DNA of 64,000 nucleotides from an uncultured Actinomycetes bacterium. Its GTDB lineage: Bacteria > Actinomycetota > Acidimicrobiia > Acidimicrobiales > RAAP-2. The notes under the pieces were generated by a model. It saw nothing but the letters and a program-made list of their open reading frames with translations. It was not told the DNA's origin and made no database searches. The DNA lies in NCBI GenBank assembly GCA_903870905.1, contig CAIQEU010000023.1, positions 62,001 to 126,000 on the forward strand. Reading direction: 5' to 3'. This document shows positions 19,398-42,532 of this stretch, piece by piece. How positions within the stretch are numbered: the first letter of the stretch is position 1; each line of letters begins with the position of its first letter. A program made the position numbers and the translations under genes.

Positions 19398-20315
19398 GTG
19401 GCTCAGTTCCTCGGTATCGTTCGTCGCGGTGTCCTCCTCGCCTTGGCTGCACTCGTCGTGGTGGGGATCGGCTCGGATTCGGTGCGGGCCTCGACGCTCC
19501 CGTCGATCGCCGCCATTGAAGCGTTGGTTGCGCAGTCCTCGTTGATCACTCACCTCCCAGCCAATCTCGATCCTCCGCTCCAGGAGTTGTCGTCTCGGAT
19601 GCCGTGGAACGAGCTCGCCGGCGCCGGCAGGTGCACTCACCCGGAGCAACTCTGTCGGTACGGAGACGCAGCGAGCAGCGAGACGATCGCGGTCTTCGGT
19701 GACTCCCACGCCGCGATGTGGGCCCCTGCCGTCGTTGTCGCTGCCGAGAGACGCAAGGTGCGGACAATCGTCCTCTGGCGACCTCAGTGTCCGCTGACGA
19801 CCACGCCCATTGGAACGGCCTGCACGGCGTGGAAGGCCCAAGCGGTTCGAGCGCTCCTCGCGGCGCGACCGAGCTTCGTGGTCCTCGCGGAACGAACGTC
19901 GCTCCCGGGGGAGACGTGGGCGTCGAGACCCTCGCGAGCTGCGTGGGCGGCTGGGCTCACGACGCTGGTCACTCAGTTCTCGATCCACCACATCAAGGTC
20001 GTGATGGTCCTCGACAATCCAGTGCTCACGAGTCAGCCGGGTCGATGCCTCGCCCGGTTCCCTTCGCAGGTGCAGTCGTGCTCGAGCCGAGTCTCAGCAT
20101 CGATTCTCGCTGCGACGACCTATCGGTCGGCAGAAGCTCTCGCTGCTCGTCGAGTCGGGGCGACGACTGTCGATCCACTGCCGTGGATCTGCTCGACCAC
20201 CTGCTCTCCAGTGGTGGGGCGTTGGCTCTCGTTCTACGATGCCACGCACGTGAGCGGGGCGTACTCTCGACACCTCGCGGGCGCCTTCAGCGAAGCGCTG
20301 GCACCTCTCTGGTAG
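19398..20315 (+). CDS. Secreted SGNH-domain protein (possible O-acyl esterase/acyltransferase domain)
   Basis: A 305-residue protein with an N-terminal hydrophobic export signal and a single SGNH domain. It has the nucleophile loop F-G-D-S-H-A-A-M-W, a W-R-P-Q-C-P-L segment, paired cysteines including C-S-T-T-C near the C-terminus, and the catalytic D-x-x-H as Y-D-A-T-H-V-S-G. It resembles the SGNH domains attached to OafA-type acyltransferases, here without the membrane acyltransferase half. It probably acts on acyl groups of surface glycans. GTG at 19398 is the first usual start codon in the export signal. A TACGGT box lies such that a leaderless start would fall on an in-frame ATC at 19380. 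Confidence 0.75.
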   Translation: MAQFLGIVRRGVLLALAALVVVGIGSDSVRASTLPSIAAIEALVAQSSLITHLPANLDPPLQELSSRMPWNELAGAGRCTHPEQLCRYGDAASSETIAVFGDSHAAMWAPAVVVAAERRKVRTIVLWRPQCPLTTTPIGTACTAWKAQAVRALLAARPSFVVLAERTSLPGETWASRPSRAAWAAGLTTLVTQFSIHHIKVVMVLDNPVLTSQPGRCLARFPSQVQSCSSRVSASILAATTYRSAEALAARRVGATTVDPLPWICSTTCSPVVGRWLSFYDATHVSGAYSRHLAGAFSEALAPLW

Positions 20316-40451: not shown

Positions 40452-41576
40452 GTGGACCTCCACCTGCCCGGCTCTGATCATCCTGCTCGCATGGCGCTCG
40501 CCGCATTCCTCGAGGCGCACCCGAGCCCAAGCGGTGCGGAACTGGCTGAAGCTGGCTACGTCGTGCCGCACTGGCCACAACCCTGGGGCCTCAGCGCCGA
40601 TCCCCTCACTCAGCTCATCATCGACGATGAACTGAAGGCCCGAGGGATCAAGCGACCGGTCAACCCCATTGGAATTGGGTGGGCAGGCCCGACGCTGCTC
40701 GCAGGTGGGAGCGAGGAGCAGCAAGCCCGCTACCTCCCGCGTCTGCTCTCGGGTGAGGACTTCTGGTGCCAGTTGTTCAGCGAGCCGAGTGCGGGTTCGG
40801 ACCTCGCTGCTCTCTCGACGACCGCCGTTCGTGACGGCGAGGAGTTCGTCGTCAACGGCTCGAAAATCTGGACGAGCTACGGCCACATCGCTCGCTACGG
40901 GATCTTGCTCGCCCGGACCGATCCATCGGCGCAGCAGCACCACGGCATCTCCTACTTCGTCTGCCCAATGGACCTGCCCGGCATCACCGTCCGACCACTC
41001 GTCGACATGACGGGAGACCACGCGTTCAACGAGGTGTTCTTCGATGAGGTCAGGATTCCAGCGGATTGCCTCGTCGGCGAGCTCAACCACGGCTGGAATT
41101 TGGCCAAGGTCACGCTCATGAACGAGCGGGTCTCGCTCTCAGGTGAAGGTGCGCTCTGGGGCCGTGGGCCGACCGTGGACGATCTCGTCGAGCTCGTGAA
41201 GGGCGATCCTCGCCCGCTCAGTCCAGCGCTCCGTCGCAGGGTGGTCGACGTTGTGATCGAAGCCGAAGTGCTCTCGATGCTCAGGTACCGACTCGTGAGT
41301 TCAGTGCTGGCGGGCCGCCGCCTCGGACCAGAGGCCTCGATTCGCAAGGCGTTGGCTGATGAGCACGGCCAGCACGTCATGGAGCTCGCCATCGACCTCG
41401 CTGGGATGGCCGGACAGATTCGCGGCATGGGGCCCCAGGCCACCCAATCCTCGGATGCACTCGGCTGGTCACATGGGTTCCTCTACGCCCAAGCCCTCAC
41501 CATTGGTGGAGGGACCAAGGCCGTGCAACGCAACATCATTGGAGAGCGCATCCTCGGACTCCAGCGTGAGGTCTGA
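40452..41576 (+). CDS. Acyl-CoA dehydrogenase family protein
   Basis: A 374-residue dehydrogenase. Motifs: F-S-E-P-S-A-G-S-D-L-A-A-L, V-N-G-S-K-I-W-T-S-Y, F-F-D-E-V-R-I-P-A-D, and Q-A-L-T-I-G-G-G-T-K-A-V-Q-R-N-I-I-G-E-R-I-L-G-L at the end. The N-terminal helical domain is shortened compared with classic members. The GTG start has TAGGCT six bases upstream and is probably leaderless. It shares a 44-base promoter region with the ligase at 38794-40407. Substrate unknown; probably a branched or cyclic acyl-CoA. Confidence 0.88.
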   Translation: MDLHLPGSDHPARMALAAFLEAHPSPSGAELAEAGYVVPHWPQPWGLSADPLTQLIIDDELKARGIKRPVNPIGIGWAGPTLLAGGSEEQQARYLPRLLSGEDFWCQLFSEPSAGSDLAALSTTAVRDGEEFVVNGSKIWTSYGHIARYGILLARTDPSAQQHHGISYFVCPMDLPGITVRPLVDMTGDHAFNEVFFDEVRIPADCLVGELNHGWNLAKVTLMNERVSLSGEGALWGRGPTVDDLVELVKGDPRPLSPALRRRVVDVVIEAEVLSMLRYRLVSSVLAGRRLGPEASIRKALADEHGQHVMELAIDLAGMAGQIRGMGPQATQSSDALGWSHGFLYAQALTIGGGTKAVQRNIIGERILGLQREV

Positions 41577-41599
41577 ACGGCGACCCGCTGCTGGCGCCC

Positions 41600-42532
41600 T
41601 CAGCGACCAAAGAGCGGCACCGAGAGTGCGTGCGTCATCACGCCTCCGAGGAATGCGGCGTAGGAGCCAGACAGGTGCGAGCGGTCGTAGTAGGCGACCA
41701 TCGTGCCGATGATCGGCGATCACGTTGTCGCACAGAGCCACGGTGTCGGATCAATGAACGACACTCGGGGAACGGCGGACGAAGCGGTGGCCTCAGCTGG
41801 AGCGTGCGTCGTCGCAGCACCTGACGGCGTCACCGTGCTTCCCGCACACGTTTGAACCGAGGTCGCGAAGCGGGCGAGGCATGGCCCGGGGTCCATGGGA
41901 AGTAGGGGCGTGTCGCCGATCATGATGACCTTCGACGTCAACGTGGTGAGGTACTTGAAGAGGTACTCCAGACTCGATGCCCACTGCGCATCGGTGTCCG
42001 ACGATTCATTCCCGGTCGTTCGTTCCGCCAGAACCACTGCCAAGGGGTGAACCTTCTTGACCTCGGCGTAGGCGCTGGTCTTCCACTTCGTGCAGGGACT
42101 TCCGAGCGGCGTGGCCACCTGGGGGCAACTCGGGAGCCACATGAACAAGAGACGGACCTTGAGCGCACGCGCCGCGAGGTCAACGGCTGGTGACCACATG
42201 AGCGCATGCGAGTCTCCGAGGAGCACGATCGTTGACTTCGCTGTCGTCAGGCCGAAGACGCAAGGCCGAGATGCGTAGACGCAGGATCCCGCTCCGGGGA
42301 GAACTGCTCCGGGCACATCGTTGCCGATCGCGGAAACTGGTGGGCTCAGTGCCGCTGGGATCGAGGTGATTGAGGTCGACGCCGCAACGAGCGCCTCGAC
42401 TTGGCTGAGTGTGGCTGGTGGGGTGGCCGCACTAGCGGAAGGGGCACTCGCACGCAGGAGTGCGAGTGCGAGCGCACATGCAAGGATGACTCGCTTTATG
42501 AGGGCATTGTAGGGGTGTTGCGAGTGGTACAT
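41600..42532 (-). pseudogene. SGNH-domain protein gene interrupted by an in-frame TGA
   Basis: A paralogue of the SGNH gene at 19398. The first 270 codons give an export signal, the nucleophile loop L-G-D-S-H-A-L-M-W and conserved cysteine segments. A TGA at 41720-41722 then ends the frame after L-C-A-T-T. Beyond it the same frame stays open for 39 codons. It encodes S-P-I-I-G-T-M-V-A-Y-Y-D-R-S-H-L-S-G, with the catalytic D-x-x-H, to a normal end at 41600. In the paralogue the TGA position is a TGC cysteine (C-S-T-T-C-S-P-V-V-G). Simple truncation would remove the catalytic His. This is either a recent nonsense mutation, a recoded codon or a sequencing error. Confidence 0.8.

Follow-up and report, generated by a model that had tools for sequence, protein, structure and literature searches.

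SGNH domains of the PF19040 family, which occur fused to AT3, and the periplasmic domains of OafA and OafB (PDB 6SE1) have in common a GDSH block I, a DxxH block V and a C-terminal pair of cysteines. C567/C572, the last cysteine pair of OafA, is a conserved disulfide pair located before D587 and H590; the C567,572S variant keeps approximately 50% activity, and S412A and H590A keep less than 1% (PMC7448272). Two other kinds of system have to be considered when an in-frame TGA lies in such a gene. In bacterial selenoproteins, UGA is aligned to Cys of homologues and is followed by a SECIS element, and a small apical loop containing a guanosine is common to these elements (PMC1088965); selenocysteine itself is found in the active sites of oxidoreductases (PMC1794560). 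In nonsense pseudogenes of multicopy bacterial families, one stop interrupts an otherwise intact frame and the paralogues are intact.

The stretch of DNA analysed here (the window, 64,000 nucleotides) contains on its minus strand, at 41600-42532 (103600-104532 of contig 23), a gene for a secreted protein with an SGNH domain. The frame starts with the ATG at 42532-42530, is open for 270 codons, and is interrupted by a TGA (codon 271) at 41722-41720. It then resumes with 39 open codons (41603-41719) and ends with a second TGA at 41602-41600, giving 310 residues on readthrough. The preliminary description of this DNA had reported the 270 open codons, the position of the inner TGA and a further 39 codons with a D-x-x-H motif, and re-reading of the frame reproduced this exactly. 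A likely N-terminal signal peptide was recognised by eye at 42425-42532. When the read-through product was compared with PF19040, residues 89-298 were matched with an E value of 2.6e-30 and a score of 106.4 bits, against a curated cut-off of 27, which places it in the family. This match spans the TGA: GDSH, containing the catalytic Ser, lies on its 5' side, and the catalytic Asp283 and His286 of block V (DRSH) lie on its 3' side. Read with the standard code, the product is without the block V Asp and His and does not have the catalytic Ser plus Asp/His set of PF19040. Unlike PF19040 proteins, OafA and OafB, the window gene is a stand-alone secreted type whose frame is without the AT3 membrane domain and whose translation ends before block V. 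Gene predictors will cut it short at the TGA.

Subsequently, the 39-codon tail was evaluated. An open tail is in itself unremarkable, since 53% of random 39-codon frames in the window are open. The tail is homologous to the corresponding part of the relatives (the read-through product continues after residue 271 with, for example, SHLSGSYAAFLGGVMTHALSVPLFGR), and mean identity to the homologues was 39.8% after the TGA versus 33.5% before it. When five intact relatives and the paralogue took the place of the query, their values spanned a range that includes this relation, and the homology is not a product of chance. Judging from the sequence, the frame after the TGA is a genuine C-terminus, because the PF19040 profile crosses the TGA. 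As this tail is undecayed, the stop is presumed to be young or unfixed.

We then compared the codon aligned to the TGA among the relatives. As the preliminary description had noted, a paralogue in the window carries TGC (Cys) at this codon; it is intact, occupies 19416-20315 (plus strand) and shares 42% identity with the read-through product. Over 68 distinct homologous places, this codon read TGC 34 times, TGT 30 times and something else three times, and TGA was observed only in the window gene. Cys is therefore encoded in 64 of the 67 other places. Two of the three exceptions (TTC and GCT) reflect a one-residue offset of the alignment relative to a neighbouring Cys, and the third (GTA, L030) seems to be truly without Cys. 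An alignment of 17 sequences contained seven invariant cysteines, and C267 and C271, the C-terminal pair of which codon 271 represents the second member, were among them. Furthermore, the genus, represented by five genomes, yielded 39 SGNH-family matches (4 in the source genome and 6-11 in the congeners), and an internal stop was found only in the window gene. The family is accordingly multicopy, and the interrupted frame is intact among relatives, as expected of a nonsense pseudogene.

In two congeners (L149 and L150), an SGNH gene with TGC or TGT at the aligned codon is convergent with an acyl-CoA dehydrogenase gene. This layout (L149:7443-9662 and L150:7427-9706) is the same as that at 40452-42532 of the window, with proteins approximately 33-40% identical to those of the window. 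Whether these SGNH genes are positional orthologues of the window gene is uncertain, because the dehydrogenases are merely 39-40% identical to that encoded at 40452-41576. Another broken member of the family was seen in a homologue from another genus (G087:C101:76453-77202), which contains one TAG and one TAA within the matched frame; this example and the multicopy nature of the family indicate that loss of a single member is normal. A search of viral contigs for the exact 30-base pattern gave no match.

These findings suggest, with a probability of roughly 78%, that a nonsense codon interrupts one copy of a multicopy secreted SGNH family of an Acidimicrobiaceae-type actinobacterium. The family resembles carbohydrate O-acyl esterases/transferases, and its genes are surface-sugar-esterase-like. 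One base change in a Cys codon, from TGC or TGT to TGA, would end translation after residue 270, with loss of the Asp and His that block V contributes to the catalytic triad. The truncated product is probably inactive because Asp283 and His286 are missing. The mutation would be recent on the sequence scale, since the 39 codons behind the TGA are undecayed, and the base is taken to be right and fixed in the population. A young nonsense mutation was also the simplest reading in the preliminary description, and it is supported by Cys in the relatives, the undecayed tail and the failure to find selenocysteine machinery. The window gene agrees with nonsense pseudogenes of multicopy families in its single stop, its otherwise intact frame and its intact paralogues; it differs from them in that the stop happens to be TGA on a Cys codon.

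A point against this nonsense reading is that the sole lesion sits on a Cys codon, with stem-loops that are somewhat more stable than shuffled sequences. We enumerated the single-base changes in the gene with Cys at codon 271. A stop resulted from 92 changes, and 28 of these stops were TGA. Nine of the 28 fell on Cys codons, including all nine Cys codons of the gene. Because approximately one in three potential TGAs lies on Cys, the coincidence needs no explanation.

An unlikely, yet appreciable, alternative is that the TGA is an artefact of the consensus or the assembly, or belongs to a minor strain, and that the gene is intact, with TGC or TGT, in most cells. The source genome is a draft of 2.1 Mb in 81 contigs (97.67% complete), and the named genomes closest to it, from Acidimicrobiaceae and uncultured actinobacteria, were assembled from metagenomes. 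The otherwise undamaged frame and the undecayed downstream part are also consistent with this explanation. However, short-read assemblies seldom carry single-base consensus errors. Taken together, the TGA is very probably an ordinary premature stop, young or strain-specific and possibly a consensus variant, rather than the mark of a selenoprotein.

Decoding of the UGA without selenium was considered next. Bacteria in general read through UGA at a low level, and near-cognate reading, for example by tRNA-Trp (CCA) or tRNA-Cys (GCA), would yield some full-length protein with part of the function. The intact frame after the TGA fits this idea, but a young mutation predicts an intact frame equally; a further point in its favour is that OafA can partly do without the disulfide (PMC7448272). 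With the general tRNA model, 42 tRNAs above the cut-off were detected in the genome, and anticodons among them were read by ARAGORN. One ordinary tRNA-Cys (GCA) was present, and no UCA anticodon was found among the tRNAs read; a suppressor or an odd tRNA-Cys with this anticodon was accordingly rejected. RF2 was detected with 482.6 bits. In addition, TGA is the terminal stop of the SGNH gene as well as of the acyl-CoA dehydrogenase gene convergent with it (40452-41576, stop at 41576), in agreement with the earlier remark that other genes here use TGA as the stop, and genome-wide reassignment of TGA was thereby rejected. As the TGA is also unconserved, we regard near-cognate readthrough as improbable.

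It is very unlikely that machinery missed by the profile searches recodes UGA at codon 271 alone, as selenocysteine, Cys or some other residue, to give a full-length SGNH protein. If true, this would be a selenocysteine-like event without the known machinery. The preliminary description had raised, as its more exciting reading, a selenocysteine at this codon, and had proposed a search for selA, selB, selC and selD; none of them was found above the cut-off. The SelA profile gave no match in the source genome, whereas the E. coli control was positive. SelA was likewise absent in all five genomes of the genus, and the same search found full-length SelA in other genera of the family, so it is able to detect the gene. 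The best SelB match scored 206.3 bits (cut-off 242.25); it lay in an EF-Tu-sized frame of 397 residues and covered the profile only as far as position 264 of 581, the pattern that EF-Tu would give. The best SelD match reached 58.3 bits against a cut-off of 125. Such sub-cut-off SelB and SelD matches occurred likewise in all control genomes. For tRNA-Sec (RF01852), no candidate in the genome exceeded the gathering score, and the top one was tRNA-Ser (UGA). There is a small chance that a locus was missed in the draft of 81 contigs; in the source genome, neither selenocysteine insertion nor UGA reassignment is supported.

The role of the cysteine was deduced by comparison with OafB and OafA. A single-sequence search of the PDB gave no match; a profile search with the alignment afterwards found the SGNH domain of OafB (6SE1, E 0.0017), in which C267/C271 are aligned to a Cys pair just N-terminal to block V. 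From the position and this alignment, we infer that C567/C572 of OafA are equivalent to C267/C271. By analogy, the Cys at codon 271 is half of a structural disulfide, neither a catalytic nor a redox centre, because the double Ser variant of OafA retains about half of its activity.

The preliminary description had also pointed to a short hairpin directly after the TGA. It is indeed present: in the minimum-energy fold, two small stem-loops were formed at 41677-41719 (minus strand), the first with only 5 bp and a CAU loop and the second, lying behind it, with 9 bp and a CCUACUA loop. Its possible role as a SECIS did not hold, as neither loop contains the guanosine typical of bacterial SECIS elements (PMC1088965), and the structure is not a recognised SECIS. 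The 46 nucleotides from the TGA onward had a folding energy of -17.4 kcal/mol (z -2.55 versus shuffles), and in 2 of 64 Cys-coding homologues the corresponding segment reached the same or a greater stability. We attach no meaning to this mildly unusual value. The sole result of an Rfam scan of the locus was a CPEB3 match below the threshold on the opposite strand, which was dismissed as chance.

The window gene resembles bacterial selenoproteins in a UGA aligned to Cys and a downstream stem-loop, and SelA is present in some other genera of the family. It differs from them in having no Sec machinery, no loop guanosine, no redox active site and no second homologue with UGA in the 68 places. Selenocysteine with a SECIS directly behind it, at the structural disulfide of a secreted hydrolase and with relatives that have Cys and never TGA, is scarcely credible and was rejected. 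A survey of the Sargasso Sea rejected selenoprotein cases based on single sequences as possible sequencing errors (PMC1088965). The main value of the locus is as a negative result: TGA in place of a conserved Cys, with a hairpin behind it, mimics a selenoprotein, but this reading is contradicted by the genome trait check and by the structural function of the Cys. Automatic selenoprotein finders might falsely flag this gene.

Across the family, SelA-profile matches were obtained in 25 of 172 genomes, with strong full-length ones in three other genera (g4, g9 and g12). Ten genomes of g10 showed weak partial matches of 42-63 bits, which could correspond to SelA-like PLP enzymes instead of true SelA. 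Nearly all of the full-length SelA-family genes were in one genus (g4), and the Sec trait thus appears to be unevenly distributed in this family.
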